Part shown: positions 1 to 59,559 of the stretch, one piece after another | How positions within the stretch are numbered: position 1 is the first letter of the stretch | How the letters are laid out: the number at the start of each line of letters is the position of its first letter | IMG/VR virus record: IMGVR_UViG_3300031578_000032 | Coordinates: 1 to 59,581 of that record | Reading direction: 5' to 3' (one strand) | DNA: 59,581 nucleotides | From: a virus | Position numbers and translations under genes: made by a program | Notes under the pieces: generated by a model | What the model saw: the letters and a program-made list of their open reading frames with translations, nothing else | Database searches by the model: none | What the model was told of the DNA's origin: nothing

Positions 1-467
1 TGGATATCTTTTCTATCCTCATTTGGTAAAGCTCCAACTCTTGCTATAGTAAGAGAGTTGTATTTAAGTAGTTCGACAAAGGGAATTAGGTTTATTAATC
101 TCATGTCTAAATCTGTATGTATTAAAATGTTATTATAAAGTATAGGTTCAATCCAAGCACATACTAAAGGGACATTCCAATAACCACATGTAAATTTTTC
201 AGTCTCTGGAAAATATTTTTCAATATAAGTTACATCATATTCTTTTAATTGATCAATTGTTTTCCTTTCAGGAACTCGCTTAGATGGACATACACAATAG
301 ATATCAATACCCTTGGGATAGTATTGTCTCCATGACTTTACACATTCAATAGCTTCTTCTTCAAGGGGTTCTCCACCATCTCTTGTATATTCCTTATTTT
401 CCCAATACTTTCCTGCACCTAAATTTGTCTTACTGTTTTCAATTACCAATATTAATGAAGTATTCAT
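1..467 (-). CDS. Glycosyltransferase-like protein (partial, 3' end outside window)
   Basis: The frame opens at an ATG at 467 and runs off the left edge, so the C-terminus is missing. The start overlaps the stop of the upstream radical SAM gene as ATGA. The visible 155 residues begin MNTSLILVIENSKTNLGAGK and contain IHTDLDMRL, an acidic DxD-like motif typical of nucleotide-sugar-dependent GT-A glycosyltransferases. It is the last visible gene of the radical SAM operon, next to an epimerase and another glycosyltransferase-like gene, which supports a sugar-related role. The family is inferred from the motif and context only; it could be another nucleotide-binding enzyme. Confidence 0.55.
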   Translation of the reverse strand, partial: MNTSLILVIENSKTNLGAGKYWENKEYTRDGGEPLEEEAIECVKSWRQYYPKGIDIYCVCPSKRVPERKTIDQLKEYDVTYIEKYFPETEKFTCGYWNVPLVCAWIEPILYNNILIHTDLDMRLINLIPFVELLKYNSLTIARVGALPNEDRKDI

Positions 468-1378
468 CTTCCCAACCTCTCTATTACTTTTTTATATTTA
501 TTCATCCATGGATGTTTTATTTGATCTACTGATACAAGAGTTAGATCATCACAGTCATTACATATGCCTCTATAAATTCCAACTGTTTGCTCTTTCATAT
601 ACTGAGCGAAAATACTATCTTCAGAATATATTTCTTCAAGGGATTGTTTGTATATATTTCCGATTATCAATTTCTTATGTGTGTCCCAACAATTGCATAA
701 AGTAACATCTCCGTTTATAAATATTCCATTATCCACAATAGCATGAGCACAAATCCCTTTTTTTATAATGTCAATTTCACATTGTTTGGGAATTTGACCT
801 GCCCAATTTCTATTGATTAATTCCTGATTCTCCATCTTAGCATTGTAGTTCTTAACTATAAACTCCATTCTCTTATACAATGAAGAATCTTTATCAACAT
901 CACATCTTAAATAATATCTTATTCTGGCTGGGTTTATGTCTTGCTCAACTATGTAGTCGTTGAGGGCATTCAGCTTTGACACAAACAGATTATACAGATC
1001 CCTTCCAGTGGTTTCTTTGTATTGTTCTATGCTGTATCCATATATACTTGGTTCAATAAACCCTTTCTTCATGTATGGGAGCAATTCTAATAATTTTTTG
1101 GATGAATTTAAAAAGTTAGTTACAAACCCATACCATTCAATTTCTGGGATACCTTCTAGAAATTTTAATTTGTCAATATGATTTATATCCAGGAGAAAAT
1201 CTCCTAAGTTTGGAGTTAGATCAAATCTTGTAAATCCAAAATCCACACACAATTTGACGACTTCTTTAAACTGTTTAATTGAGAATACTTCCAGGGGTGG
1301 GCGCTTAACCAGAAATGAGTTCAAACAGAATTTACAGTTGAGTTGACATCTCAATAATTGTGTTATATTTATTATCAT
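464..1378 (-). CDS. Radical SAM/SPASM-type protein (subfamily A, copy 1)
   Basis: This 304-residue protein has the radical SAM signature CQLNCKFC (CX3CX2C, Cys11/15/18), which would bind the [4Fe-4S] cluster that cleaves S-adenosylmethionine. The C-terminal third carries a SPASM-like auxiliary cluster region: CAHAIVDNG, GDVTLCNCWD, LIIGNIYKQSLEEI, then ICNDC. Layout and motifs match the next gene (1375-2301) closely, so the two form a pair distinct from the other five radical SAM genes of the operon. Both ends overlap neighbours as ATGA, indicating translational coupling. The substrate cannot be read from the sequence; SPASM enzymes of this size act on peptides, sugars or alcohols. Confidence 0.85.
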   Translation of the reverse strand: MIINITQLLRCQLNCKFCLNSFLVKRPPLEVFSIKQFKEVVKLCVDFGFTRFDLTPNLGDFLLDINHIDKLKFLEGIPEIEWYGFVTNFLNSSKKLLELLPYMKKGFIEPSIYGYSIEQYKETTGRDLYNLFVSKLNALNDYIVEQDINPARIRYYLRCDVDKDSSLYKRMEFIVKNYNAKMENQELINRNWAGQIPKQCEIDIIKKGICAHAIVDNGIFINGDVTLCNCWDTHKKLIIGNIYKQSLEEIYSEDSIFAQYMKEQTVGIYRGICNDCDDLTLVSVDQIKHPWMNKYKKVIERLGR

Positions 1379-2301
1379 ATCCAGTCTAAAACTCCATTAT
1401 TTAATTTATGTTTTTTGATCATCTCTGGCTCATCTAAATAATATTCATACTCTCTACATGCATTACACATTTCACTATAGACACCCATTGATTGCTTTTC
1501 AATTATATCTCGGTAGTTCGATTTATCTCCGTATATATCTTCCATGCTCTGATCTAAAATATTTCCTATCAACATCTTTCTGTTAATATCAACCATACCA
1601 CAAAGAGTAACATCAAAATTAGGAAGTATAGCTGTTTGAACTATTGCATGTAAGCATGTACCTTTTCTCTCTGGTTTCTTTGCTAGATATTTTACACCAG
1701 GAAGTTGCCCTGCCCAGTCGTAATTTAATTTGGCATTTCCATTGTCTATAATAATTTTTCCTTTATAAACAGCCTGTAGCCCTCTAATTATTTTAAATAG
1801 TTTAGTATCATATGGAACATTTTCAAACTTATCATATCTCATATAAAATGTAATTGTAGGTCCAAAGAATTTATTTTCTCTCAATTTATTATACAAAGCA
1901 TTTAACCTTTCTTCAAATTGAGGGAATTTTGTTGTTCCTGTCATATCTAAATAATTTTGATTATCATGCCCATAAATACTTATAAATATTTGAGTCTTTT
2001 TTGAATTAACAAAAGATTTCATATCAGTATCTAACATTGCTAATAGATTTGTAACTACATCATAATTCTCAACCTTTTTTTTATCTTCAAGTATATTTAT
2101 CATAATACCATGACGTGGAGTCAAATAGAATTCTCCCACTATTGGCGTAAGATCTACATTTGATAATCTAACTGTTGAGGTTAATTTATCAATTACAAAC
2201 TTAAACTCATCTGGTTCCATAATTTCAGTTAATCTTGCCCTGTTAAGACAAGGATAACACCTCAACTGACATATGTTATTGGTTACCAATTGGATATACA
2301 T
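1375..2301 (-). CDS. Radical SAM/SPASM-type protein (subfamily A, copy 2)
   Basis: The 308-residue product has CQLRCYPC (Cys11/15/18) at the N-terminus and a C-terminal block parallel to the neighbouring copy: CLHAIVQTA, DVTLCGMVD, KMLIGNILDQSMEDIYGD, then MCNACREYE. The substitution of Pro for the usual aromatic residue before the third Cys (YPC) is unusual. The start overlaps the 3' end of the epimerase gene by 19 bases and there is no clear separate ribosome binding site, so translation is probably coupled to the epimerase. The pair 464-1378/1375-2301 looks like an old tandem duplication. Confidence 0.85.
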   Translation of the reverse strand: MYIQLVTNNICQLRCYPCLNRARLTEIMEPDEFKFVIDKLTSTVRLSNVDLTPIVGEFYLTPRHGIMINILEDKKKVENYDVVTNLLAMLDTDMKSFVNSKKTQIFISIYGHDNQNYLDMTGTTKFPQFEERLNALYNKLRENKFFGPTITFYMRYDKFENVPYDTKLFKIIRGLQAVYKGKIIIDNGNAKLNYDWAGQLPGVKYLAKKPERKGTCLHAIVQTAILPNFDVTLCGMVDINRKMLIGNILDQSMEDIYGDKSNYRDIIEKQSMGVYSEMCNACREYEYYLDEPEMIKKHKLNNGVLDWI

Positions 2302-3194
2302 TTTTTCAAGATAGTCTCCATATCATTTTCTGGCACCCACCCTATATATTTCTGAATTTTATTTACTACTGGCGATCTGTGTCTTACATCTGAATGATTT
2401 TTTGTAAACCATTCACTGTATGGTTTCAATAATATATTAGAGTTGCTTCTTGTTAATTTTTTAACCATTGTAGCAAGTTCTAATATAGTTATACCATTGT
2501 GTGTGTTACCAACATTAAATATTTCTCCATAACATTTTTCATTTATTATTAATTGATACATAGCTACAACTGCTTCGGAAACATCACAAAAAGATCTGGA
2601 TTGTTCACCATCTCCATGCACAATAATATCTTTATAACCTAATGCTCTTTCAATAAAAGTTGGCACAACCATTCCATATGTAGATACCTGTCTGGGTCCA
2701 ATAATATTAAAAGGTCTAATTATTACTACTGCAGGAAGTTCATATGATAATGCTAAAAATTCACCAGCTAGTTTGGCACAAGAATACCCCCACCTTAAAG
2801 TAGATTTTGGGCATCCTATTTGTAGGTCTTGATCTTCTCTAAACATTTTTTCACTATTGCCATATACCTCACTGGTGCTTGCATATAATATTGGAGTCTC
2901 GTATTTTTTTGCTAATTCAAACACTTCCATTGTAGTTCTAAGGTTGTTAATCATCGCTAAATTTGGATTATTATTAATGTATTGATTACCAACCGAAGCA
3001 GCTAAATGGAATACACAATCACTCTTTTTAAAACCAACTTCAAGACTATTAACATATGTTACCGGAACCATTATGTTACTTTCTTTCCCAGTAGAAAAAT
3101 TATCATAAACATAAACTTTATGCTCTTTCTTTATTAACAATTCAACTAAATGTGAACCTATAAAACCTGCACCACCTATAACAAAAAATTTCAT
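2283..3194 (-). CDS. NAD-dependent nucleotide-sugar epimerase/dehydratase (extended SDR)
   Basis: The 303-residue protein is an extended short-chain dehydrogenase/reductase. It has the nucleotide-binding GGAGFIG (residues 7-13), DNFSTGKESN after the second strand, the HLAAS motif, the STS triad segment (106-108) and the catalytic YSCAK (Tyr137/Lys141). The family interconverts UDP- or dTDP-sugars such as UDP-glucose/galactose or makes 4-keto-6-deoxy intermediates, in the cytosol. Length is normal for UDP-glucose 4-epimerase relatives. It lies inside the radical SAM operon with overlaps on both sides, suggesting that the operon acts on sugars. The exact substrate is not resolvable here. Confidence 0.9.
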   Translation of the reverse strand: MKFFVIGGAGFIGSHLVELLIKKEHKVYVYDNFSTGKESNIMVPVTYVNSLEVGFKKSDCVFHLAASVGNQYINNNPNLAMINNLRTTMEVFELAKKYETPILYASTSEVYGNSEKMFREDQDLQIGCPKSTLRWGYSCAKLAGEFLALSYELPAVVIIRPFNIIGPRQVSTYGMVVPTFIERALGYKDIIVHGDGEQSRSFCDVSEAVVAMYQLIINEKCYGEIFNVGNTHNGITILELATMVKKLTRSNSNILLKPYSEWFTKNHSDVRHRSPVVNKIQKYIGWVPENDMETILKKCISNW

Positions 3195-4117
3195 TGTATT
3201 TCTCCCTTTTTATGCTTCAGAAAATATTGTATTGAATACTTGCCAAATTCTGTATCACCAGGGCATTCAACATTATTACAAAGATGAAACCTTGGATATT
3301 TTATTGCTTCATTCATATGAAGATTAGTTAATACTTCACTCTCTCCATCACACCATTTTACATCACCATTCTCATATATGTCAAACCCAGCAGCACATAC
3401 CATTCCTTTAAATGTACCAAACGTGTAACAGTCAGGAACAATATCTTGCTTAACTCCATCTATTAAGACATCTACATTCTTTTTATCAAACCATCCAAAT
3501 ACATTATGTTCATCATATTCATTCTCTTGTCTGAATTTCAAATATTTTTCTTTAAACTTTATTTGATCTATTGGATCTATTTTTAAAATGGGTAATAACT
3601 TTTTGTATTTATTATATATGCTCAATACATGATCCATATTGTTTTCTTGAATCATAATACTTGCACCAACTAATTGATTTCTATTTTGAAGAATTAAAGC
3701 TTTATCGACCCACTCAGGTATATTTCTTACCCAATCAATATGAAGAGTAACAGCAGCATTTGCATACTCTGGAACACTCTTAAAAAAAGATGTTGATTTA
3801 ACCAAGTTGGTTGTAAATCTTATATATATTCTATCCTTGTAAAGGATTTTTAGTTTTTTTATAAAGTATATAAAATAAGGGTGGATGGTAGGTTCTCCTC
3901 CATAGAAATGAAATAATATATACTTCCTATCTTGTTTGTTAATAAATTTAACTATTTTATTGAATAATCTATTGCTGACCATGTTTCCACTGACATTAAT
4001 ATCTTCTATACAATACCAACATCTTAAATTACAATCTCGTATAGTAAATAGATTTATATACAGTGTATCTTCAGCTATATCTTGGTTGTATAAAACAAAC
4101 TTATCTAAGCGTTGCAT
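3191..4117 (-). CDS. Radical SAM protein (subfamily B, copy 1)
   Basis: The 308-residue product has CNLRCWYC (Cys29/33/36), then HFYGGEPTIHPYF, the GGEP motif that contacts the SAM amino group. The C-terminus has a conserved pattern shared by five genes of this operon: MVCAAGFDIYENGDVKWC, a proline/tryptophan-poor linker, then LCNNVECPGDTEFGKYSIQYFLKH. That cysteine-rich tail probably binds an auxiliary Fe-S cluster. It overlaps the epimerase by 4 bases and the upstream paralogue by 13. Members of this group differ from one another across the middle region, so they are diverged paralogues rather than recent copies. Confidence 0.87.
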   Translation of the reverse strand: MQRLDKFVLYNQDIAEDTLYINLFTIRDCNLRCWYCIEDINVSGNMVSNRLFNKIVKFINKQDRKYILFHFYGGEPTIHPYFIYFIKKLKILYKDRIYIRFTTNLVKSTSFFKSVPEYANAAVTLHIDWVRNIPEWVDKALILQNRNQLVGASIMIQENNMDHVLSIYNKYKKLLPILKIDPIDQIKFKEKYLKFRQENEYDEHNVFGWFDKKNVDVLIDGVKQDIVPDCYTFGTFKGMVCAAGFDIYENGDVKWCDGESEVLTNLHMNEAIKYPRFHLCNNVECPGDTEFGKYSIQYFLKHKKGEIQ

Positions 4118-5079
4118 CTAAATAATACACTCCTATTTTTATATCTCTTTAACTCTTCTAATGTATATTCATCACCTTCTGGTTGAGGATCTTCTATGTT
4201 CTTTATATAATATTTTATTGAGCTTCTTATTACTTCCATATCACAATTAGAAGTATAATTATTACATATATGCCAACCTGGAATTTTTTTATCAGGGGTT
4301 TCAAATACGTTGGTAATTGGGTTATTTATAGTTGGCCAACAATTATACAAGTTTCCATATTCATCAATAATAATTCCTGAACTACACATATGATATTTTT
4401 GTACACTATCTTTATCATAAAATAATTCCTTCTCACTATCTTCAAACATATCCCAATTATCAAACTCCTCTTTATATTCAATATATTTTTTATCATTTAT
4501 GATCTGATCAATGGGGCATACTATGGTGGGTATATCATAATTCTTATGCATATAATGATATATAAGTCCCATGTTTTCCATTTGCATCATCAGAACAGCA
4601 TGATATAATTGCATATTATCATTTAAATATCTTGCTTTTTCAAACCATTCATCTGGATCTTTCACCCAATCACTATGAAAGGAAGCAGCATATATTAATT
4701 CTTTTGGGAGACTCTTAAAATACTCTAAGGGTTTTATTAAGTTTGTGGTTATTAGAATATCAACGTTTCTTTTACCTTCAAAGTATTTTTTAATTTTATA
4801 AACCATATCAGATAGATGTGGATTTAATGTTGGTTCGCCTCCAAAGAAATTAATACAAATATTCGGTTTCTTTGGATGATCTTGTATATCAATAAATTGA
4901 ATAACCTTATCTATATCTGATAAGTCCATATATCTTGATTTTTTAGAATCACCAGTAAGAACATCACAATACCAACATTTGATATTACAAAACTTTGTAA
5001 CTAATAGAGTTACAAACATAGTCCTACTGATGTCTATCAAATCTCTATTGCTCATTAATTTATCATCTTTGAATTTCAT
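4105..5079 (-). CDS. Radical SAM protein (subfamily B, copy 2)
   Basis: The chosen start is the ATG at 5079 (MKFKDDKLMS), preceded by AAAAGGAATAAAA; a longer frame to 5139 lacks a ribosome binding site and would overlap the upstream gene deeply. CNIKCWYC is at Cys31/35/38, followed by NFFGGEPTLNPHL, DPDEWFEKARYLND and the C-terminal cluster region (MCSSGIIIDEYGNLYNCW, then WHICNNYTSNCDMEVIRSSIKYY). The same order of motifs is seen in the flanking genes. Function: SAM radical chemistry on an unknown substrate, inferred from family membership. Confidence 0.87.
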   Translation of the reverse strand: MKFKDDKLMSNRDLIDISRTMFVTLLVTKFCNIKCWYCDVLTGDSKKSRYMDLSDIDKVIQFIDIQDHPKKPNICINFFGGEPTLNPHLSDMVYKIKKYFEGKRNVDILITTNLIKPLEYFKSLPKELIYAASFHSDWVKDPDEWFEKARYLNDNMQLYHAVLMMQMENMGLIYHYMHKNYDIPTIVCPIDQIINDKKYIEYKEEFDNWDMFEDSEKELFYDKDSVQKYHMCSSGIIIDEYGNLYNCWPTINNPITNVFETPDKKIPGWHICNNYTSNCDMEVIRSSIKYYIKNIEDPQPEGDEYTLEELKRYKNRSVLFRCNA

Positions 5080-6034
5080 TTTTATTCCTTTTAAAATAAT
5101 CAATTGAATATTTTGGATGGTGAATATCACATATATCACAATTATCGTATAAACATATATGCCAATCAGGAATTTTTTTCAATGCATCCTTAAAAATATT
5201 TAGAATAGGTGATGCCTCAGGATCATCAAATTTTCTCCAACAGTAATACACATCTCCATTCTCTGCAACCCTAAATTTACAATTGCACATCATCAGCTTG
5301 AAGTTATGAAATTGAAAGCCGTCTAAACTCCCCTTTGAACCATCCTTAAATAATATTTCACAATTAGTCGTGTCCTCTTGTTCATACTTATATTGACCCA
5401 GATAGTCTGCATTATATTTTTTAGCTACGTGTTTTGCCCAATCCGTTCCAACCAATTGTTCTTGCACCACAAGTTCATAAACTGAAAATTCATCTGATTT
5501 GTATTTGTCATAAATTTTAACAATTTCTTTTTCATTCTCTGGTGTTAATATGAACTTAATATCTCTTATCATTCCTTTCTTATTAAGATAATATACTTTC
5601 GAGAACCATTGAGCCGGATCTTTAATAGCATGATAATGATATGAGCATGAGAATTTTGTTTGCTTTGGCCAGTTGTATCTCCAATACTCAAATGGTTTCA
5701 TTAAATTTGTAAGAGTATGAATTTTTAACAACTTTTTTCCTTCGTCAAAGTATTCAGTGTCAAGTATTGTATGGAATTCTCTAAAGAGGTGATGTGCTGT
5801 TGGTTCGCCTCCAAAGAACTCAAATGTATAATGTTTATAATCCTGTAATTCTAAAAACTTTAATAATCTTCTAAAGTTACTCCCAGAAGCATAATAATAA
5901 CTATCCTTTCTTTTATTACAACCCCGACTACAATAATTACATCTTACATTACAATTTTCAGTTGGAATATAAATTACCTTACATACTTCATCCCAGTAAT
6001 TTGGATCTACTATACAAAATTTATCAAGTTTCAT
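5063..6034 (-). CDS. Radical SAM protein (subfamily B, copy 3)
   Basis: The 323-residue protein carries CNVRCNYC (Cys28/32/35) and an unusual extra Cys in the following SRGCN, then EFFGGEPTAHHLF. The C-terminal part reads MMCNCKFRVAENGDVYYCWRKF, then WHICLYDNCDICDIHHPKYSIDYFKRN, the clearest version of the operon-specific C-terminal cysteine pattern. It overlaps both neighbours by about 11-17 bases. The central DPAQWFSKVYYLNKKG segment matches the WFxKxxxLN element of its paralogues. Confidence 0.87.
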   Translation of the reverse strand: MKLDKFCIVDPNYWDEVCKVIYIPTENCNVRCNYCSRGCNKRKDSYYYASGSNFRRLLKFLELQDYKHYTFEFFGGEPTAHHLFREFHTILDTEYFDEGKKLLKIHTLTNLMKPFEYWRYNWPKQTKFSCSYHYHAIKDPAQWFSKVYYLNKKGMIRDIKFILTPENEKEIVKIYDKYKSDEFSVYELVVQEQLVGTDWAKHVAKKYNADYLGQYKYEQEDTTNCEILFKDGSKGSLDGFQFHNFKLMMCNCKFRVAENGDVYYCWRKFDDPEASPILNIFKDALKKIPDWHICLYDNCDICDIHHPKYSIDYFKRNKNEIQR

Positions 6035-7019
6035 TTACATTTCCTTTCTTAAAATGTTTCATGTAATAATTAACAGAACATTTTGGATATTCTAAATCAC
6101 ATATACACTTCTTCTGCTTACATAAAATCCATTCATCAAGCTTCTTTGGTTCATCTTCTCCCAACACCATAACTTTAGGAATGTCATGTAAACATCTAGT
6201 AATTTTTCCATTGGGATGTACTGATATTTCACAATGACACATCATAAAATAAAAACTTCTATATTTATCATAGTTCAAGTAATCATTTGTACCATCAGAT
6301 AACATAACTTTTATACTTTCACTATCTAATTCTTCATCCCCTCTACAATCAACATGAGTATTGAAGTATTCAAAAGTACCTGAATCTGTTAATTCTTTAA
6401 ATTCTTTATCATATGCAAATTCATTTATTGGATAGACAGTTACCAAATCTACAATGTTTTCATCACTATACTTTATCAAATATTTATCTTTATATTTATC
6501 ATAAACTTCTTTAATCTTATCAGCATTTTTTTCAGTTAGCATTAAAAATACTTTTGATAAACAACCTTTATCATATAAAAGTTCTACTTTAGAAAACCAT
6601 TCTTCATCATCTTTAACACCATGACTGTGATATGAACACGTAAAATCAAAAGACTCTTTAAGTGGTAAACTTTTAAAATATTCATATGGTTTTAATAAAT
6701 TTGTAACTACATGAATATAACTATTTTTTAACTTACCTGCTTCATCAAGAAAGTATGGAAAATCCCTATGAACAGTTGGTTCTCCTCCAATTAAAGTCAT
6801 TGAAATTCTAGGTCTTTCTTGGATTAAAAGGAGTTTAATAAGTTCAGAGAATTGATTTTTTGATAAAAAGTCATATCTTTTTCTCGGTTTATCAAATCCG
6901 CCAATACAATAGTAACAACTATTATTACACTTATTTGTTAGAGTTACATTAGCATGAGCTGTTTCAACAAATTCTTTATAACCATGTATTGCATAATACT
7001 CTAATTTATTTTTTTTCAT
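6024..7019 (-). CDS. Radical SAM protein (subfamily B, copy 4)
   Basis: The 331-residue product has CNNSCYYC (Cys31/35/38), TLIGGEPTVHRDF, DDEEWFSKVELLYDKG and a C-terminal MMCHCEISVHPNGKITRC / LCKQKKCICDLEYPKCSVNYYMKH block. It most resembles the copy at 5063-6034: both have the double-cysteine CxC before the ENGxV-like turn and a long insertion in the middle. The ATG at 7019 has an AGGATAACTC leader, so this gene has its own ribosome binding site although it overlaps the upstream gene. Confidence 0.87.
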   Translation of the reverse strand: MKKNKLEYYAIHGYKEFVETAHANVTLTNKCNNSCYYCIGGFDKPRKRYDFLSKNQFSELIKLLLIQERPRISMTLIGGEPTVHRDFPYFLDEAGKLKNSYIHVVTNLLKPYEYFKSLPLKESFDFTCSYHSHGVKDDEEWFSKVELLYDKGCLSKVFLMLTEKNADKIKEVYDKYKDKYLIKYSDENIVDLVTVYPINEFAYDKEFKELTDSGTFEYFNTHVDCRGDEELDSESIKVMLSDGTNDYLNYDKYRSFYFMMCHCEISVHPNGKITRCLHDIPKVMVLGEDEPKKLDEWILCKQKKCICDLEYPKCSVNYYMKHFKKGNVNET

Positions 7020-7821
7020 GAGTTATCCTATAATATTTTTTCATATCCATTCTTGGATATGCTTGATCACAAAAACAAATTTTAGATATACAAAATGTCC
7101 AGTCTTGAAGGTATTGCATCGGATCTGTATATATGTTAAAGATTTTATATTTTCTATCCATTTGTGCCCAACATCTCATAACATCACCATTTTCTCTAAT
7201 AATAAAACCTGGTTTACACATTTGATTTTTATAATTACCGTATATGTGTTCATAAATATTGTCCCAATCATATGTATTTTTCATTACATCATATGCTTCA
7301 GTTCCCAATATCTGATGGATGGGACATATCCAAAGTTGTCTCCTATTGAAATGTTTATAATATAAGTGTAATATTTGCTTGACATTATTTTCTTGAAGCA
7401 TGAAAAAGACCTCAGAATTTTTTAATGAATAAACCTTTTCAAACCACTTATCTATATCCGGAATCCAATCAGAATGAAACGAAGCATTAATTATAAAATT
7501 ATCGTACTTATTAAATTGTTCAAAATATTTCTTTGACCTTAATAAATTAGTGTGCATAAGCAAAGTAACGTTGTCAAATTCTTTATTTAATCTATCAGTA
7601 TATTCAATTAGTTTTGGATGTAACGTTGGTTCACCTCCATAGAATTGAAAGAAAAGATTCTCTTTTTTATGCAGATGTATAAACTCAATAACTTTATCAA
7701 AATTATGTTCGACTGTTTCTCTAACATCTTTTTCTTCATTCCAATAACAATACCAACACTTTATATTACATTTTTGAGTTAATACAAATGTTATTTCAAG
7801 AGTAGTATTATAATCAATCAT
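7006..7821 (-). CDS. Radical SAM protein (subfamily B, copy 5, shortest)
   Basis: This is the shortest of the group at 271 residues. It has CNIKCWYC (Cys18/22/25), FQFYGGEPTLHPKL, DIDKWFEKVYSLKNS and a C-terminal MCKPGFIIRENGDVMRCW / WTFCISKICFCDQAYPRMDMKKYY block. Its N-terminus starts almost directly at the first radical SAM strand, without the leader of about 10-20 residues present in its paralogues. It may be close to the minimal form of the family. The start overlaps the stop of the upstream gene as ATGA. Confidence 0.87.
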   Translation of the reverse strand: MIDYNTTLEITFVLTQKCNIKCWYCYWNEEKDVRETVEHNFDKVIEFIHLHKKENLFFQFYGGEPTLHPKLIEYTDRLNKEFDNVTLLMHTNLLRSKKYFEQFNKYDNFIINASFHSDWIPDIDKWFEKVYSLKNSEVFFMLQENNVKQILHLYYKHFNRRQLWICPIHQILGTEAYDVMKNTYDWDNIYEHIYGNYKNQMCKPGFIIRENGDVMRCWAQMDRKYKIFNIYTDPMQYLQDWTFCISKICFCDQAYPRMDMKKYYRITHEKK

Positions 7822-8651
7822 AGTATATCCATAATGGGGTCATCTGATTTAAAAAACCTATCTTTCAATCCTATTTTCTGTAGTTCATGATAACGATACC
7901 ATGAACCATCCTTTATTTTATATTGGTTATTGTATATTATGTTCTTGTTATAAAAATAAGCCTCCATTAATAATCTACATCTAGGTTCAAAATATAGCCC
8001 ATCATGAATATACATATAAGTATCCCATAGTTCAAAAAAGTTTTTTGGATGTTTAACTAAAACTGTTATTCTATTGGTTGGATCAATATTTTTATTACCA
8101 GAAACAATTATATTTTTATTAGTTAATGTTAATGCTCGAGTTAATTCTGTTGCACTTTTACCTGAACAATTAATATAACAATTACTTCTATCCTTTTTAA
8201 CTTCTTTGTAAAGGTCAAATGGAAACCTTAATTTATAATCAACATTTCCAACACCAAATGGCATTTCATTATAAACAGTATAGTTTGGTCTATCAATGTA
8301 GTCGTAAAATCTTTTTATGTAATTTTTATCATGATCGTAAATAATGTGATAGTGTGAGGCAAGTGTGTATGGAAGAACAGAAGTTGTACCATAGTCCATT
8401 ATAAGAATATTGTCAAAAGAGAGGTATATGAGTTTGTATTCTGTTTCTAAAACTATTATGTTATCTTTGTAATTAAAATCTATATTATATCTATCTCTAA
8501 TTATTTTAAATACATCTTCTAATGTAAGATGACGCTTTATAATAAGAATTAATTTTGTATCTTTATTTAATTTTTGTGTTTGCAAATAATATTCTATAAC
8601 ATCAATTAGTGCACCATTAATATGATAACATCTGAATATTATAGCATTCAT
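7818..8651 (-). CDS. Putative GT-B-like glycosyltransferase, first gene of the radical SAM operon
   Basis: The ATG at 8651 is preferred because AAAGG lies 8 bases upstream; a GTG at 8660 would place the start on top of that site. The 277-residue protein has no motif I recognise with certainty. The C-terminal stretch ITVLVKHPKNFFELWDTYMY, then FEPRCRLLMEAYFYNKNIIY resembles the donor-binding end of GT-B glycosyltransferases, where an E-x-R...EA pattern precedes a short strand. Its position ahead of the epimerase and radical SAM genes fits a sugar-transfer role, but this is inference. Confidence 0.45.
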   Translation of the reverse strand: MNAIIFRCYHINGALIDVIEYYLQTQKLNKDTKLILIIKRHLTLEDVFKIIRDRYNIDFNYKDNIIVLETEYKLIYLSFDNILIMDYGTTSVLPYTLASHYHIIYDHDKNYIKRFYDYIDRPNYTVYNEMPFGVGNVDYKLRFPFDLYKEVKKDRSNCYINCSGKSATELTRALTLTNKNIIVSGNKNIDPTNRITVLVKHPKNFFELWDTYMYIHDGLYFEPRCRLLMEAYFYNKNIIYNNQYKIKDGSWYRYHELQKIGLKDRFFKSDDPIMDIL

Positions 8652-8665
8652 ATATTTCACCTTTC

Positions 8666-8797
8666 TTATTCTATTTCTGGATATTTAGGGAGTTTATCTT
8701 TCTTTTCTTTATCCCAACATTTATCACATATTTTTTCGTAGTTACTTGTGATAAATATAATATATGTATCTTGACCACATCTATCACAAGTCATCAT
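8666..8797 (-). CDS. Small zinc-ribbon-like protein (43 aa)
   Basis: A short frame from ATG at 8797 (tandem ATGATG) to TAA at 8666 encodes MMTCDRCGQDTYIIFITSNY followed by EKICDKCWDKEKKDKLPKYP and a short end. Two CxxC knuckles (TCDRC, ICDKC) separated by about 20 residues are the layout of a zinc ribbon. TAAGGAAAC upstream can serve as the ribosome binding site. It fills the gap between the operon head and the coiled-coil protein gene. Function unknown. Confidence 0.6.
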   Translation of the reverse strand: MMTCDRCGQDTYIIFITSNYEKICDKCWDKEKKDKLPKYPEIE

Positions 8798-9641: not shown

Positions 9642-11936
9642 TTAAGAGTAATTTTGCTCGGCTGTTTCTCCATACATAGCTGTTCCGTCACATAAAAATG
9701 TAATTATATCAGTTCCGCTAGTTGTTATTGTTGGAGGAGTTCCACCTGGCCATTTAAAATCGCTGCTATATGATAGTGTATATGAACTAGGGTTTATTAT
9801 TTTTATTGTATAAAAGGCTAATCCATTTGGCATATTAGAAACTCGAAGTTCAGTATTATCGGTCAGTGTTGCTGTTATTATCTGATGTTCTTCTATATCC
9901 CATGATATGACAGCTGAACCATCAATAATTCCTGATGAAATACTTGTAGAATCATAATACTGGGCTTTTTCCCATTGGTTAGATGTTAAAAGCAACGAAC
10001 TTACGTCTCCAGAAGTCCCACTACTACCCGAACTACCATCTGTACCAGAGGTTCCATCAACACCCGAAGTACCGTCAGTTCCGCTCGTTCCATTGGTACC
10101 TGATGTTCCAGAACTACCTGATGAACCACTACTTCCAGATTCCATCCATATTTGCCAATATAATGACCAGTTAACTCCAGTTCCAGGATCATTATCTATA
10201 GCTGGAACATGATCTTGAATACATAAGTAAATTACTCTATTATCTTCAACCACATCATTGATAACATAACCAGTAGAGTCTATTGACCATGATCCTTGAC
10301 TATAAAATCCATCTCCTGATGTACCAGAACTTCCAGAACTTCCACTTGACCCTGATGTTCCTGATGTTCCACTTTCTGCTAATAAATTCCAATAGGTTTC
10401 CCAAGAAGCTCCTACACCAGGTTCATTTGTAGAATCAGCATTATTAAACAGAATACACATATAAGAGGCATTATTATTTATTACTACATCATTAACATAA
10501 TAATCTTCAGTTGAATCCCAACTTCCTAGATAAGCAAAACCAGTTCCTGAACTACCTGCTGTACCACTAGTTCCATCTGTTCCTGATGTACCATCACTTC
10601 CACTAGTTCCTGATGAACCATCACTACCTGAGCTACCTGATGAACCAGAAGTTCCGTTAGTACCTGATGTACCTCCTGTTCCTGATGACCCAGAAGTTCC
10701 TGATGTTCCATTTGTACCTGACGATCCGCTGGATCCTGATGTTCCATTTGTTCCACCTGCAGCAAATAACTCCCAATAGGTAGTCCAACTAACTCCTACA
10801 CCAGGTTCGTTTGTAGTATCAGCGGTATTAAATAATGTACAAACATAATTGTTATTATTATTAATAACTACATTTTGAACATAATAATCTTCAGTTGAAT
10901 CCCAACTTCCTAAATATTCAAAACCGCTTCCTGATGTACCAGAAGATCCTGAACTTCCATCAGTACCTGCGATTCCTGTAAAAGTTCCAAAATCTGACCA
11001 CAGTCCTGTTGAACCATTGTAGATAATAATATGCCCGTCAAGAGTAGCAGAAGTATCAATATCAGCAGGAGCTCCCTTATCTGCTCTAATATCATTTATA
11101 ATTACAAATGTCCATGTTAATACACTTGTTCCATCAATAGCAGCTTCAATCTCGGTAACTTTTGCTTCATCAAAATCTCCATATTCATCAACTTGAAAAC
11201 TAGATCCACTAGATCCACTAGATCCTGATGTACCATGAGAACCTGACCATCCTGAAGAACCAGAACTTCCGCTTGAACCAGATGTTCCATTTGTTCCTTG
11301 AACACCATCTATTCCGCTTGTTCCATCAGTACCATCAACACCTGATGTTCCTGAACTACCTGATGTTCCGGTAGATGAAAACAATTCCCAATAAGTTTCC
11401 CAATCTACACCATCACCAGGTTTATTTGTACTACTAGATATATGATCTAAAATACATATATAATTATTTAAATTAGTTGCGTCAGCAACAACAACTTCAG
11501 TTGCTATATACGCAGAACTATCTTGCCAATATCCTTGATACACAAAACCAGCACCACTGCTACCTGAACTACCAGCTGTTCCACTACTACCTGATGTCCC
11601 GTGTGTTCCGCTAGTACCATCAGTACCAGATATTCCACTACTACCCGAACTACCATCTGTTCCACTAGTGCCTGAACTCCCGCTGCTACCTGATGTTCCA
11701 CTAGTTCCTGATGTTCCACTAACATCAACGAAAGCAGAACCATCCCATACTGTTACAGCAGTGAACTTACCAGTAGATGGTGTAGTTTCCCCTATTGGAC
11801 CGGGAGAATACATTAATAGTTGTTTTGTAAAGTTTTTAGTCTCATTCCCACTAACATCCACACCGACTCCCAGATCATTTGCATCTAATTGCCCTATGAA
11901 TGGATTGAGACCACTTATAGTTTTGTCTTCAGCCAT
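9642..11936 (-). CDS. Collagen-like tail fibre/virion protein with repeated sugar-binding-like modules
   Basis: The 764-residue protein alternates long glycine-every-third-residue tracts (GTSGSSGTSGTDG type), expected to form a trimeric collagen-like shaft, with four globular modules of about 55 residues. The modules share the pattern GF.YxGSWDSTEDYYVxxVV, a short loop and NYVCxL, then a TNEPGxGxxWxTYWELx end, resembling CBM5/12-like carbohydrate-binding repeats. Modules 2 and 3 are nearly identical. A different insert (about residues 245-325) contains DGHIIIYNGSTGLW. The N-terminus (KTISGLNPFIGQLDANDLGV) resembles virion-attachment ends of phage fibres; the C-terminal 100 residues are a separate beta-rich domain. 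Likely host-surface binding. Confidence 0.85.
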   Translation of the reverse strand: MAEDKTISGLNPFIGQLDANDLGVGVDVSGNETKNFTKQLLMYSPGPIGETTPSTGKFTAVTVWDGSAFVDVSGTSGTSGTSGSSGSSGTSGTDGSSGSSGISGTDGTSGTHGTSGSSGTAGSSGSSGAGFVYQGYWQDSSAYIATEVVVADATNLNNYICILDHISSSTNKPGDGVDWETYWELFSSTGTSGSSGTSGVDGTDGTSGIDGVQGTNGTSGSSGSSGSSGWSGSHGTSGSSGSSGSSFQVDEYGDFDEAKVTEIEAAIDGTSVLTWTFVIINDIRADKGAPADIDTSATLDGHIIIYNGSTGLWSDFGTFTGIAGTDGSSGSSGTSGSGFEYLGSWDSTEDYYVQNVVINNNNNYVCTLFNTADTTNEPGVGVSWTTYWELFAAGGTNGTSGSSGSSGTNGTSGTSGSSGTGGTSGTNGTSGSSGSSGSDGSSGTSGSDGTSGTDGTSGTAGSSGTGFAYLGSWDSTEDYYVNDVVINNNASYMCILFNNADSTNEPGVGASWETYWNLLAESGTSGTSGSSGSSGSSGTSGDGFYSQGSWSIDSTGYVINDVVEDNRVIYLCIQDHVPAIDNDPGTGVNWSLYWQIWMESGSSGSSGSSGTSGTNGTSGTDGTSGVDGTSGTDGSSGSSGTSGDVSSLLLTSNQWEKAQYYDSTSISSGIIDGSAVISWDIEEHQIITATLTDNTELRVSNMPNGLAFYTIKIINPSSYTLSYSSDFKWPGGTPPTITTSGTDIITFLCDGTAMYGETAEQNYS

Positions 11937-20050: not shown

Positions 20051-20887
20051 ATGAAAATATACATTGATCATTTATTAAAAATAGGAAAGACTCATAAAGT
20101 ATGTGAGGATTATATTATTTCAGGTCATACCCCAGTCCCTTATATTATTTTATCGGATGGATGTTCTAGTTCTAAAGACACTGATGTTGGGGCTAGAATT
20201 CTATGTTATAGAGCTAAACAATATTTACAACGGAATGGATCTCTTGATTCTGTAAATGAATCTGAAATGGGCGATTATATTATTTGGTCTTCTAAATTAG
20301 CTATAGACCTTCTTGGATTAGATGTAACTGCTTTAGATGCGACTTTAACGATTGCCTATTACGTCAATGGAATATTAAAAATTATTATGTATGGCGATGG
20401 AAATATAGTTTATATTGATAACAATAAAGATAGTATATCAATTGAAATTAATTATACTAAAAATACTCCATATTATTTATCATATGAATTAGATCAAAAA
20501 AGAAAACAAATATATCAGGATAACAACATTAAAAAAACAATTGGGGGCTATTGTTATTATTCAGATATAAATAAAGTAAAAAGTGGAACAACCGGGATAA
20601 TAAAATGTGACAAACCATATATTTCTACTTATATAATTGAACCTAATACAGATCAAACTATTTTAATTTTCTCTGATGGGATTTCAACCTTTTTTAATAA
20701 AGAACAACAAGAATTCTTGCCTATAAAGGATCTTATACAAGATTTTTCATCTTTCAAAACTTTAAAAGGGGAGTTCTTACAAAGAAGGTTATTAAGTAAA
20801 AATGGTGCTATAACTAAGTTAGAACAACAAGGTTATGATCACTTTGATGATTTATCAGTTGGAGCTTTTGTTATTCGATGCAACTAA
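20051..20887 (+). CDS. PP2C-family serine/threonine phosphatase
   Basis: The 278-residue protein has the PP2C metal-binding acids in order: CEDYIISG (Glu19/Asp20), LSDGCSS (Asp36-Gly37), MYGDGNIVY (Asp116-Gly117), FSDGIS (Asp209-Gly210) and HFDDLSVGAF (Asp266/Asp267). These bind two metal ions for phosphate hydrolysis. The order and length match the compact bacterial form encoded with TerY-type vWA proteins and a kinase. It acts in the cytosol and probably reverses the action of the kinase at 21264 or controls the vWA protein. Its last codons overlap the next small gene. Confidence 0.87.
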   Translation: MKIYIDHLLKIGKTHKVCEDYIISGHTPVPYIILSDGCSSSKDTDVGARILCYRAKQYLQRNGSLDSVNESEMGDYIIWSSKLAIDLLGLDVTALDATLTIAYYVNGILKIIMYGDGNIVYIDNNKDSISIEINYTKNTPYYLSYELDQKRKQIYQDNNIKKTIGGYCYYSDINKVKSGTTGIIKCDKPYISTYIIEPNTDQTILIFSDGISTFFNKEQQEFLPIKDLIQDFSSFKTLKGEFLQRRLLSKNGAITKLEQQGYDHFDDLSVGAFVIRCN

Positions 20888-47212: not shown

Positions 47213-47658
47213 TTGTCAGCCACCACATTCATAATTTTTTGTCTCCATGATATTTTTTCTTTATAAGGAATTGTTTTAATTTTAGGTAATTGACGTATAT
47301 TTACTTTAGACTTTTGTTTAAGAGACTTTCCACCAGGTATGCTTTTTGGTGAAGAGGGTGGGAGTGTATTGATAAAATAAAATGGGATGTAAAGTTTTGC
47401 ATGACCACTACTACCACCAACAATATGTGCTGATGATGAATTCAGTCCATTAGTTCCAGACATCCCAGCGCCAGTCGCATTAGTTATCCAATCAAGTTTT
47501 CCTTTACCTAAACAATGATAACATCGAGAAACTTTATTATCTTCACAATCATAAAAATATCCCCAACCATTACAGACCTCACATATACAATCACCATCTT
47601 TAAAATCTTCAAATTTCTTTATATCAGTTTTTCTGTAATAAACGGCCTCTTTGTTCAT
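47209..47658 (-). CDS. CxxC...GKxDW zinc protein, paralogue 2
   Basis: The 149-residue product contains GDCICEVCNGWGYFYD, SRCYHCLGKGKLDWITNATG, then a glycine-serine-rich region and a basic C-terminus. Same module as the genes at 46886, 49093 and 49502. It overlaps the upstream dpdA-like gene by 4 bases. The Gly/Ser stretch suggests a flexible linker to a second binding region. Confidence 0.72.
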   Translation of the reverse strand: MNKEAVYYRKTDIKKFEDFKDGDCICEVCNGWGYFYDCEDNKVSRCYHCLGKGKLDWITNATGAGMSGTNGLNSSSAHIVGGSSGHAKLYIPFYFINTLPPSSPKSIPGGKSLKQKSKVNIRQLPKIKTIPYKEKISWRQKIMNVVADK

Positions 47659-49040
47659 ATTTTTAATAACTCCGTTTCATGATTTAAATTAATAAATTCA
47701 TCCTTATCTAAAAACCTTTTAACTAAATCTTCACAATAATTTTCATCTAATTGTACTAACATATCCAATGATCTTGCAACCATAGCAGCTTTCTTTACAC
47801 CCTTTTTTGTCATTTTACCACTATTTAAATCTCTTGTTAATGTTGCACATTGGATTTCAAATTCGCCTTTTTCACCCGACTTATATAACGGATAAATTTC
47901 ATCTGCAAGTTTTCTAGATCGTTCTTGAATTTCTGCCCATTGCCATAACATATATAGCATTGAATATACTTTTACATCTTCATAAAATGTTCCAGTCTTT
48001 GGATCATAAACTTCACCAACTTTAATCTTTTTGAAATTCATTTTATCTGAAAATTCATCTAGAATTATTTGTAACTGTTCATAAACCCTAACATATTTAC
48101 TAAACATGTTATTTAGATTTGGAGTCCTCAAATCCATTTTTTGAAGATGACCATCTGGGTGGTCAACCCATAAATATCTTCCAATCATTAAAGACTTAAA
48201 TAAACCAGACGAGTCATAAGTGATGTTTAATTTTATATTATGTTTTTCTAATACAACTTTCCTAAATAATTCATAAAAAGTTACATCTCGAAAATTTGCT
48301 CCACCTAAAATATGAAAGTTCAAAAAATCTCTTCCATATCTTTTAGCTTCATTCAATAAAGGAATTATTGGTAGAACATATATAATACAAGGAATAACCA
48401 TATCTGAAGACATGTTTGCTACAATACCACCTGTACCATGATATTGAAATGAGTTAAACATATTATCTTCTCGAAGTATTTTTGTGTAAAGTTTCCATAA
48501 TTCTGGTGTTCTAAAATGATGTATATAAATTATTTTTTTTCTAATATCATCGGGAAGTTCTTTAGCCCGATTATATGATTCTAAGTTTAGTTCATACACA
48601 TCTTTAAATGTTTTAAATATTTCACAATTTGGACCAGGCGGAATATCTAAAATAAATGCTCGTTCTATAACTTGATGGTGATTTTCAATCCACTCATAAT
48701 ACATTTTACCAAGTAAATTAGATTCCTCTCTAGTTAATCTACCAACAGATATTTGAAATCCTCCTGAGTCTACTATCAAATCTGATGAATTGAAAAACCC
48801 CCAACTTCGACATTTGTTATATACATTTTCTTCATTTTTATTATAGTTTTTATATCTTTTTTTACCAGCAAAATTTTGACCATATGAATGAAGGAATCCA
48901 GAGCAGATTTCCCCAAGAAAATCAGAAATTTGATCCCTCGTAAAGTTGTCATAAAATCGATCTTTTTTACCTAACATATAATTATTTAATATAGAAGCAA
49001 GACTTTCAAATCCTGCCAAAATGTAACCAGATTTAACCAT
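47655..49040 (-). CDS. dpdA: DpdA-like tRNA-guanine transglycosylase family protein (DNA 7-deazaguanine insertion)
   Basis: The 461-residue protein has the TGT-fold signature DLIVDSGGFQISVG (first catalytic Asp), ERAFILDIPPGP, HILGGANFRDV in the GG region, and ITYDSSGLFKSL with a second Asp, the likely nucleophile. The zinc-binding CxCxxC...H of tRNA enzymes is not visible, as in many phage DpdA. DpdA swaps guanine in DNA for a 7-deazaguanine. QueE at 51666 would supply the precursor pathway. GAATGAGGTGAATAA precedes the ATG. The assignment as DpdA rather than a tRNA enzyme is by context. Confidence 0.78.
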   Translation of the reverse strand: MVKSGYILAGFESLASILNNYMLGKKDRFYDNFTRDQISDFLGEICSGFLHSYGQNFAGKKRYKNYNKNEENVYNKCRSWGFFNSSDLIVDSGGFQISVGRLTREESNLLGKMYYEWIENHHQVIERAFILDIPPGPNCEIFKTFKDVYELNLESYNRAKELPDDIRKKIIYIHHFRTPELWKLYTKILREDNMFNSFQYHGTGGIVANMSSDMVIPCIIYVLPIIPLLNEAKRYGRDFLNFHILGGANFRDVTFYELFRKVVLEKHNIKLNITYDSSGLFKSLMIGRYLWVDHPDGHLQKMDLRTPNLNNMFSKYVRVYEQLQIILDEFSDKMNFKKIKVGEVYDPKTGTFYEDVKVYSMLYMLWQWAEIQERSRKLADEIYPLYKSGEKGEFEIQCATLTRDLNSGKMTKKGVKKAAMVARSLDMLVQLDENYCEDLVKRFLDKDEFINLNHETELLKI

Positions 49041-51665: not shown

Positions 51666-52328
51666 TTATATAAACCCGTATATGACATGATCTCTTGACG
51701 AAAAATTAAAATTATATTCTTCACAAGCATCAAATACAGCTCCAGAATTTTTTATTAAGTCTGCTCTTGTTACTCCCTCAATCATTAAATATACTCGTTG
51801 GTTTACATTAAGGACAGACAAAGCTTCTAAATAATCATTAACCAAAGCTCTGTCTTCATAAACAACTTTAAAATAAACATTCGGATATTTGATTAATTGT
51901 CCAGTTGAGATTATTTCATTCTCTAAATCTCTTTGTGTAAATATTTTTGGCGAATATGAATAATTTACATTTTTGTCTGCTTTAACTTGTGAAATAAGGG
52001 ACAGAAGATTATAGCCATTAGTTTCAACATTTGCTATTGGATAATCTAATTCATTTAACAAAAGTAAACATTCCTTAAAATGTTTAGCTATTGTTGGTTC
52101 TCCACCTGTTACTAAAATTCCACATTTATGTTCATCTATAACTTTTTGAATGGCTGATAAATCATAAATACCTTCTTGTGAAATTCTCATTTTAACATTT
52201 GTATCACAAAAACTACATTTCCTATTACAATACTTAAACCTTAAAATGACCATTAAACGACCTCTATCTACTCCCTCCCCCTGAAAACTCCTAAAAAATT
52301 CAATAAGTTTTACTTGTTTTCCTTCCAT
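51666..52328 (-). CDS. queE: 7-carboxy-7-deazaguanine synthase (QueE)
   Basis: The 220-residue radical SAM protein has FRSFQGEGVDRGR, the QueE-specific start, then CNRKCSFCDT (Cys34/38/41), GGEPTIAKHF and ETNGYN. Its cluster pattern is CX3CX2C as in most radical SAM enzymes. QueE makes CDG for 7-deazaguanine compounds. With the DpdA-like protein it indicates that this phage carries modified guanine in its DNA. AAAGGAGATTATTA precedes the ATG. Confidence 0.9.
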   Translation of the reverse strand: MEGKQVKLIEFFRSFQGEGVDRGRLMVILRFKYCNRKCSFCDTNVKMRISQEGIYDLSAIQKVIDEHKCGILVTGGEPTIAKHFKECLLLLNELDYPIANVETNGYNLLSLISQVKADKNVNYSYSPKIFTQRDLENEIISTGQLIKYPNVYFKVVYEDRALVNDYLEALSVLNVNQRVYLMIEGVTRADLIKNSGAVFDACEEYNFNFSSRDHVIYGFI

Positions 52329-57865: not shown

Positions 57866-58615
57866 TTATTTATTTTGATCTAATAAATTATAAATATCTG
57901 TTTTTAACTCATTCGTTGATGGTATATAATCAACATAATTTATATATTTCCATTTATAATTTTTTAAATATCTTCTTCTTTTTTCATCATAAATTTTATC
58001 TTTATGCCAATAACTTCCATCATATTCTATAACTAGTCTTTTTTCTGGAATAGCAATATCTAAACTGTAATTAAAAAAAGGATAATTAAGAACAGCAGTA
58101 GAAAATATCTTTTGAACTTTATTAAACAGCTCAACTTGTGGTTTAGATGGATTCTTAATAAAAAAATTACAATATGCAGCTTGACCACTATTCATTTTTA
58201 TTGATTGTATTTTTCTTTGTTTTAATCCATTAGAACTATTCCACCATTTCTTACATGTCTTTGATATCTTTTCTCTTGTTGTTTTTTTATGTTCTTTTTT
58301 ATAAAAATGATGATTTTTTCCAGACTGACTTTTACTTGATTTTAATTTACTTTCCTCAGTATGGTGTTTATTTTTCCAATAACCTTCTGTTCCATAAACT
58401 GGATGATTTTTGCCTTTTGGAGTATTCAAAAATTGTTTTTGTTTAACTTCTGGATTCTTATATGCTTTAAGAACTCCTTCTTTTATTTTTTCTTTGTGAA
58501 CTTTACTATATGGTCCTTTGAGTCTTCCTTTGAAATAATGACCTTTTATATATTTATTTGATTTATTTGTTACTTTTATTCCACACCCACATTTACAAAA
58601 AGGTAGGTCCATCAT
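57866..58615 (-). CDS. NUMOD3-containing homing endonuclease with Vsr/DUF559-like nuclease domain
   Basis: The 249-residue protein begins FCKCGCGIKVTNKSNKYIKG, a small CxCxC element, then NUMOD3-like repeats (GKNHPVYGTEGYWKNKHHTE, GKNHHFYKKEHKKTTREKIS) that bind DNA, and ends with a nuclease domain LDIAIPEKRLVIEYDGSYWH followed by DEKRRRYLKNYKWKYI, the Vsr/DUF559 fold (D, E-x-D, H). The domain set matches I-Bth0305I-like homing endonucleases. It inserts between 57311 and 58618 genes. ATAAGGAGTTAATT precedes the ATG. Confidence 0.82.
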   Translation of the reverse strand: MMDLPFCKCGCGIKVTNKSNKYIKGHYFKGRLKGPYSKVHKEKIKEGVLKAYKNPEVKQKQFLNTPKGKNHPVYGTEGYWKNKHHTEESKLKSSKSQSGKNHHFYKKEHKKTTREKISKTCKKWWNSSNGLKQRKIQSIKMNSGQAAYCNFFIKNPSKPQVELFNKVQKIFSTAVLNYPFFNYSLDIAIPEKRLVIEYDGSYWHKDKIYDEKRRRYLKNYKWKYINYVDYIPSTNELKTDIYNLLDQNK

Positions 58616-58617
58616 AA

Positions 58618-59559
58618 TTAACTCCTTATAATATATTTTACTAAATCTGTAAAAAAATTATCAACAGACTTTTGACATTTTAATTTGGGAACTAAATAGG
58701 TTTCACTATTTAAAATTTTATCTAATTTTATTTCAAGATCTTCAAAATTATCATATAAATATTCATTGTCTAATAATTCAGGAAAACAAAGTCTATTTGG
58801 AGCTAATACTATAGTATTGTTATTTATAGCTTCTAATATAGTATAGTTAAAAGTATCTTCTTGAGATGATATTAATAAAACTTTAGATGAAGAAAGAAAT
58901 TTATAATAATCTTCCCAATTGTTAGTCTCTATTCTTTTAATTTCTCCAAATTTTTTATTTATCTTTTCTTCTATTTTATAATCAACTTTTTGTTTTGTTG
59001 GTCTTGCAACCGATATAATATCATATATTTTCTTTTCTTTAAATGTTTGATAAGGAGGATTGGGCAAATAAGTTACTTTTGTATTTGTCCAATTAAGTTT
59101 TTCAGCATGATAGTTACTTCCAACAAAGATAGTATCAAACAATGTTGAGTGAGCTGTTTCGACTGGAAATTTAGAATGCGTAACGTTTTCAAAATAATCA
59201 TATTTGTTTAAAGATGTTGCATGACAAAACGCAAACATGTGTTTTGGTCTTTTATGATATAAAGCACTGCAAAAAATACCAGGAAAACTAATATCTGATA
59301 AAAATAAAATATCATCATCTTTTAAATCTAATTTCATATATTCTTCTATTTGACTAGTTTCCCATCTTATAGACTGTTCAACTGGGGAAAATAGCTCAGA
59401 GCGTCCTCTAATAAAAGCAGTCTTTAAAAAATCACGACCACCTAATGTAGTAACACTCATAGGAACTATATCAGCAAATGCATCAAAAAATGAACGTTCC
59501 CACCATTGCTGATATCTCATTGGTGTTGGATATTGTGGTACAAAAATTATTCTTTTCAT
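58618..59559 (-). CDS. GT-B family glycosyltransferase
   Basis: The 313-residue protein has the donor-site end of GT4-type enzymes: SVARPTKQKVDYKI at the start of the second domain and SSQEDTFNYTILEAINNNTI, VLAPNRLCFPELL (E-x7-E region). The N-terminal half (FVPQYPTPMRYQQWWERSFF) has AFCHATSLNKYDYF. It transfers a sugar in the cytosol to an unknown acceptor, perhaps modified DNA or a phage protein. It lies at the right edge; the start has a weak AAAGGTGG site 16 bases upstream. Confidence 0.83.
   Translation of the reverse strand: MKRIIFVPQYPTPMRYQQWWERSFFDAFADIVPMSVTTLGGRDFLKTAFIRGRSELFSPVEQSIRWETSQIEEYMKLDLKDDDILFLSDISFPGIFCSALYHKRPKHMFAFCHATSLNKYDYFENVTHSKFPVETAHSTLFDTIFVGSNYHAEKLNWTNTKVTYLPNPPYQTFKEKKIYDIISVARPTKQKVDYKIEEKINKKFGEIKRIETNNWEDYYKFLSSSKVLLISSQEDTFNYTILEAINNNTIVLAPNRLCFPELLDNEYLYDNFEDLEIKLDKILNSETYLVPKLKCQKSVDNFFTDLVKYIIRS

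Follow-up and report, generated by a model that had tools for sequence, protein, structure and literature searches.

Seven radical S-adenosylmethionine (rSAM) genes and a sugar-nucleotide gene lie in a row near the left end of the viral record IMGVR_UViG_3300031578_000032 (59,581 bases, the whole of which is referred to as the window). Together with a glycosyltransferase gene on either side they form a run (positions 3–8660) that we tentatively explain as part of a phage module that makes an unusual amino or guanidino sugar and attaches it, most likely to the virion. This explanation draws on the gene families present, on conserved catalytic residues and on the recurrence and synteny of the module in other phages, usually close to virion genes. 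The record is classed as linear and probably a fragment; it is a piece of the genome of a T4-like tailed phage of bacteria, a setting backed by major head, portal, DnaB-like helicase and DNA polymerase genes in the window. The best matches listed for the DNA polymerase include named phages, Pelagibacter phages for instance, with which it shares no more than about 28% identity.

The array at 464–7821, on the minus strand, contains the seven rSAM genes and one gene of the nucleotide-sugar epimerase/dehydratase family, so that seven of eight consecutive genes encode rSAM proteins. The arrangement put forward in an earlier sequence-only reading, in which the rSAM genes surround an epimerase, was confirmed by open reading frames (ORFs), motifs and Pfam matches for all members. 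Reading along the minus strand, the run begins with P0009 (7818–8660), a GT-B-fold (GT4-like) glycosyltransferase gene, and continues with the rSAM genes P0008 (7006–7821), P0007 (6024–7019), P0006 (5063–6034), P0005 (4105–5079) and P0004 (3191–4117), the epimerase-family gene P0003 (2283–3194), the rSAM genes P0002 (1375–2301) and P0001 (464–1378), and finally P0010 (3–467), of GT-A type. The predicted reading frame of P0005 (4105–5139) is too long, and the ATG at 5079 fits as its start. As had been noted from the sequence, starts overlap the preceding stops: each of the nine junctions between 3 and 8660 shows an overlap of 4 to 19 bases, and the run therefore probably represents one transcription unit. 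Since the contig starts inside the left glycosyltransferase gene, leaving the N-terminal 155 residues of P0010, the cluster is cut.

All seven rSAM proteins carry the CX3CX2C motif. The five encoded at 3191–7821 (group A) match PF04055 with E values from 3e-6 to 7e-13 (P0008, 8e-12; P0007, 7e-13; P0006, 3e-6; P0005, 2e-11; P0004, 7e-10), P0006 reaching 29.6 bits, over the cut-off, when scored together with its neighbours. GGEPT is present in each of them, and they have in common the distal ligands C-x12-14-C plus a distal C-x4-6-C, often ending CxC(D), as in the C-x4-C-x-C of P0007. The signature ENGDVxxCW, which had been proposed as common to the five, is exact in two only, although the shared cysteine ligands are present. 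In a 39-row alignment of group A and its relatives C202, C217 and C244 do not vary and at least 90% of rows have C249; this conservation suggests that the four are ligands for one auxiliary cluster, as in Twitch domains. The rSAM fold, a partial TIM barrel, was modelled for P0008 only (AlphaFold2 (AF2), predicted local distance difference test score (pLDDT) 88), and this model matches MoaA (Z 16.6), SkfB (16.4), BlsE (16.3) and BtrN (14.2), with SuiB, anSME and DesII also within Z 14–17. A 108-row tree unites the five group A proteins in a single clade (Shimodaira–Hasegawa-like approximate likelihood ratio test support 98), which points to a lineage-specific expansion. They cluster there with rSAM proteins from modules of other phages (L098_2674, CPt10_8664, L088_7841 and L091_2092; L-numbers denote viral loci that we fetched), and L098_2674 sits directly after the GT-B gene of its locus.

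The two remaining proteins, encoded from 464 and 1375 (group B), pair in the same tree with a support of 93; they match PF13186 over the cut-off (P0001, 1e-6; P0002, 5e-6) and PF04055 weakly. They had been taken for a SPASM subtype, an assignment that did not survive inspection of their distal cysteines, which are four in number and spaced as in Twitch proteins (C-x17-C-x44-C-x2-C in P0002; C210, C228, C273 and C276 in P0001). The SPASM motif comprises seven cysteines for two auxiliary clusters (PMC6231123), whereas the window proteins have four or five conserved distal cysteines, and the SPASM class was accordingly ruled out. Judged from sequence, they agree with the definition of a Twitch domain (one auxiliary cluster, bound by no more than four cysteines), and the cysteine pattern of all seven fits the one-cluster Twitch type. 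In the PDB the group B profiles matched nothing but BtrN (E 2.5e-5 to 2.9e-5), which oxidises 2-deoxy-scyllo-inosamine in butirosin biosynthesis (PMC9012708). BtrN has a Twitch domain (PDB 4m7s/4m7t) whose C-x44-C-x2-C spacing, read from the alignment, equals that of group B, but the match is strong in the auxiliary domain only and module relatives of group B elsewhere show different spacing. Group B clusters in the tree with CP220_11929, L088_10725 and L090_10801, each of which adjoins a GT-A gene, as P0001 does in the window.

P0003 belongs to the NAD-dependent nucleotide-sugar epimerase/dehydratase/decarboxylase family (PF01370, 1e-39) and keeps STSEVYG and YxxxK. Its nearest solved structures are UDP-glucuronate decarboxylase, ArnA and GalE-like enzymes, and its closest relative among the fetched phage ORFs is the module epimerase of other phages, to which it is 36–42% identical over the full length (E 7e-75 to 9e-62). 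The glycosyltransferase-like genes previously noticed at both ends of the array were also upheld. P0009 has no Pfam, PHROG or NCBIfam family match; its AF2 model (pLDDT 85, predicted template modelling score 0.87) aligns over nearly the whole length with the GT-B enzymes PimA (Z 16.9), BshA (15.8) and PglA (14.8) in VIA-align, and the best Foldseek match has an E value of 1.3e-3. On the predicted structure we assign it as a GT-B glycosyltransferase. Campylobacter phages have homologues of P0009 upstream of their rSAM genes, with weak pairwise scores (E 1e-3 to 8e-3), and such homologues are found in further phage modules too. P0010 belongs to a phage glycosyltransferase family, carries its invariant DLDM and matches phrog_23758 (1e-23); it is 38% identical to the full-length module glycosyltransferase of L098 and 39.6% identical over 96 residues to CP220 gp088.

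The recurrence of the gene set was examined by scanning viral contigs with GT-A and GT-B alignments as seeds, no rSAM sequence being included. These scans returned L088–L106 and the Campylobacter phages, and merging of near-identical glycosyltransferases left 12 lineages identified by that gene, CP220 among them. At least four rSAM genes were found within 10 kb in 11 of the 12 lineages. The P0009-type GT-B gene (P9), an amidinotransferase and a short DegT aminotransferase were each present in 10, an epimerase in nine, and PIG-L and NodB-type deacetylases in eight each. In the whole records of L088, L098 and L091 every rSAM match falls inside the module. The modules are usually located near virion or tail genes, their flanks containing tail-fibre, virion, neck and head-tail genes. 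A tblastn search of 50,697 phage records with P0009, P0010 and P0001 gave matches in Campylobacter phages only, and viral scans seeded with P0007 alone or with query A2 found no relative. A comparison of alignments A4 and A7 by hhalign was left unused as circular, both containing P0009.

In the fuller modules of other phages the partner enzymes point to amino and guanidino chemistry. The amidinotransferase aligns with AGAT (E 1e-32), SxtG, HsvA and StrB (to 4e-29), and its D187, H233 and C345 are conserved in 17 loci. The short DegT protein (family f2, L088–L103) matches PF01041 (2e-21) with about 205 residues against a 360-position Pfam profile and keeps the invariant Lys of the SFxxKK motif. 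PIG-L (2e-16) and NodB-type polysaccharide deacetylase (2e-6) are among the module families, and some modules contain a cobalamin-type rSAM. In L096 a Polysacc_synt_2-type dehydratase gene (1e-72) directly precedes the DegT gene; 4-amino-sugar pathways use such a pair of dehydratase and DegT enzymes. Full modules thus share families with aminoglycoside-type pathways (StrB/AGAT amidinotransferase, DegT/StrS and PIG-L), but the module DegT is short, no inosose synthase was identified, and these families are absent from the visible part of the window. One rSAM–sugar module also contains a Tad6-like Thoeris inhibitor gene (L089:11587–12303; PF25188, 5e-26).

It had been suggested that no phage pathway with this layout was known; this does not hold, given the 12 lineages with the module or parts of it and an earlier description from Campylobacter phages. 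In 2010 five rSAM genes and a putative amidinotransferase gene in CP220 and CPt10 were described as an 'interchangeable module' of unknown function and judged likely to be non-essential (PMC2853527). As in the window, CP220, CPt10 and F379 (Firehammervirus) have a P9-type GT-B gene upstream, tandem rSAM genes and tail genes nearby. In CP220 and F379 the homologue of P0001 likewise adjoins the homologue of P0010; CP220 gp087, next to the glycosyltransferase of the P0010 family, is 29% identical to P0001. The window differs in its epimerase gene and its five consecutive group A paralogues, and protein identities are 22–40%; the Campylobacter cluster has a putative amidinotransferase, which the visible part of the window lacks. 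No DegT or PIG-L of the module families was found in the Campylobacter phages. The module is exchangeable in these phages. CC_R7 has a reduced version, and CJLB-14 (L086) has no rSAM or module GT-A gene at the module site, where the flanking genes P9, f17 and f10 are kept; its one rSAM gene, about 5 kb away, is common to all these Campylobacter phages. CJLB-14 is therefore a natural comparison strain.

Multiple rSAM genes in phages are already on record (PMC2853527, PMC3322345, PMC7029224 and PMC5332604). The pelagimyophage study places rSAM cassettes in a host recognition cluster within the tail-fibre region (PMC7029224), and 12 rSAM genes are described for one T4-like genome (PMC5332604); by description, both resemble the window in having numerous rSAM genes in T4-like phages. 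For this gene set in phages, our literature search returned only the Campylobacter work, the rest being unrelated. The constant set of sugar-enzyme partners across lineages and the fivefold expansion thus appear to be new, being undescribed in the literature searched.

The sequence-only reading had favoured a sugar, or a component bearing one, being modified step by step, and this idea fits best, because the other members of the module in further phages are sugar enzymes and two of the rSAM proteins match BtrN, which acts on an aminocyclitol. In the scheme that we propose, the sugar substrate, the order of steps, the product and the acceptor are those that we infer. P0003, as a short-chain dehydrogenase/reductase, would alter a nucleotide sugar or a related carbohydrate. 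Several Twitch rSAM enzymes, using the 5'-deoxyadenosyl radical, would each act on one carbon of a carbohydrate intermediate by dehydrogenation, epimerisation or some other change, the auxiliary cluster perhaps accepting the second electron as proposed for BtrN. In full versions of the module, the short DegT protein and the AGAT/StrB-type amidinotransferase would add amino and guanidino groups, and the PIG-L and NodB-type deacetylases would unmask amines. Transfer of the sugar would then fall to the GT-B and GT-A enzymes, with a virion protein such as the adjacent Ser/Thr-rich tail fibre as the likeliest acceptor. The fivefold expansion of group A may serve extra positions or substrates. In the window phage, the amidino- and aminotransfer genes would lie beyond the contig end; the rest of the module may lie outside the contig or be missing, as in the smaller versions of L104 and the Campylobacter phages. 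Virion glycosylation has a precedent in mycobacteriophages, as cited in PMC12619734.

Several observations weigh against this scheme. The visible window contains no amidinotransferase, aminotransferase or deacetylase gene, the contig ending inside the cluster. The collagen-like tail fibre (9642–11936, minus strand; phrog_5073, tail fiber, 5e-60; 31% Ser+Thr) is a candidate glycan acceptor by adjacency only. In L104 the module lies beside SbcC/SbcD genes rather than tail genes, and in L104 and L106, which hold the closest relatives of P0009, only P9, rSAM and NodB genes are in view. L103 has glycosyltransferase and sugar genes with no rSAM in its 37.5 kb record. Finally, peptide enzymes (SkfB, SuiB and anSME) and sugar or small-molecule enzymes (BlsE, DesII, BtrN and MoaA) score close to one another for the group A fold, so the fold does not decide between peptide and sugar substrates.

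This last point leads to the possibility, which we consider improbable, that the rSAM enzymes modify a peptide, epimerising or cross-linking residues of a virion protein that the glycosyltransferases also decorate. The structural matches of group A include CteB and EpeE besides SkfB, SuiB and anSME, the C-x4-C-x-C tail resembles that described for SkfB (PMC6231123), and a repetitive tail fibre adjoins the array; the recurrent partners, however, are sugar-type enzymes, and group B matches BtrN only. The array also lacks the hallmarks of a cluster for ribosomally synthesised and post-translationally modified peptides (RiPPs). As the sequence-only reading had remarked, there is no precursor: none of the small ORFs next to the array, a 43-residue zinc-ribbon-like one at 8666–8797 included, recurs in unrelated modules. 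The CX3CX2C motif starts at residues 11–33 in all seven rSAM proteins, leaving no room for an N-terminal RiPP recognition element, and none was found there, a stand-alone element not having been searched for. A RiPP cluster was thus rejected as first choice. A host capsule cluster acquired whole was likewise rejected: two scans of 84,980 bacterial and archaeal species genomes, limited to one or two short patterns each, found no relatives of the GT-A and short DegT proteins. Neither setting that had been named as fatal to the claim of novelty, a constant neighbouring RiPP precursor or such a host capsule cluster, was therefore encountered with these limited means.

Somewhat greater weight, while still unlikely, belongs to the idea that the module makes or alters a host-surface sugar (lipopolysaccharide (LPS) or capsule) instead of a virion sugar, for example to block superinfection. 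In pelagimyophages, whose host recognition cluster also contains rSAM cassettes, the glycosyltransferases of that cluster were proposed to alter the host O-chain (PMC7029224), and the GT-B matches include the lipid and LPS glycosyltransferases PimA and WaaG; against this, the annotated module families yielded no flippase, polymerase or lipid-carrier transferase. A product that is a free small molecule (an aminoglycoside-like inhibitor, a signal or a counter-defence metabolite) or a hypermodified nucleobase is about as improbable as peptide modification. Amidinotransferase, DegT, PIG-L and BtrN-like rSAM proteins do recall aminoglycoside biosynthesis, one module encloses the Tad6-like gene, and the phage has a QueE-like gene, but the latter is about 43 kb from the cluster, the modules are usually among virion genes, and the annotated families include no identified export or resistance gene. 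It seems very improbable that the array, as an exchangeable cassette, is decaying or neutral and now has little function. The lack of rSAM genes at the module site in CJLB-14, the reduced version in CC_R7 and the non-essential status suggested in 2010 (PMC2853527) would agree with this; the seven frames are nevertheless open with intact motifs, though the paralogues are only 24–34% identical within groups, and the module recurs in many lineages.

If the amino/guanidino sugar module is a correct description, phages make a type of sugar so far known from antibiotic pathways, which would matter for receptor binding, for the shielding of virions and for the discovery of enzymes. In 2010 so many rSAM genes in one phage were termed highly unusual and the cluster of the two Campylobacter phages was left unexplained; it is now a recurrent, definable module of about 12 phage lineages whose constant partners point to amino/guanidino sugar chemistry. 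A wider proposal, which we regard as rather doubtful, is that many phages carry a portable, virus-specific pathway of about 15–20 genes (an upper bound) that uses serial rSAM chemistry to build an aminoglycoside-like guanidino/amino sugar and places it on tail fibres or other proteins of the virion, giving an undescribed class of virion glycan. In the window version, one radical enzyme would have been multiplied to five for action at several positions. These ideas can be tested directly, since the cluster is present in some cultured Campylobacter phages and missing from others.

Most of the rSAM arrays returned by scan A1 (L003–L082) were rejected as examples of the same module, because mostly the rSAM core is shared and the partners differ. 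P9 together with glycosyltransferase, epimerase or deacetylase genes was found among them in L018 and L023 only, and some others share the amidinotransferase or a B12-type rSAM. Most of these loci (for example L071, L005, L065 and L077) form a second class of viral rSAM array, with up to nine rSAM genes per 16 kb and neighbours that include class III aminotransferase, tryptophan halogenase, carbamoyltransferase and Asp/Asn hydroxylase genes. On gene content, this class looks like natural-product-type chemistry in phages.

Elsewhere in the window, a QueE-like rSAM gene lies at 51666–52328 (phrog_2076, 2e-30), and the gene at 47655–49040 has a weak match to queuine tRNA-ribosyltransferases (phrog_887, 1e-4). 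The two possibly serve a 7-deazaguanine DNA modification separate from the rSAM cluster. At the opposite contig end, the product of 58618–59559 resembles group 1 glycosyltransferases (PF00534, 4e-4, below the cut-off) and has no relative among the fetched phage loci. A PP2C-type phosphatase gene is found at 20051–20887 and a NUMOD3 homing-endonuclease-like gene at 57866–58615.

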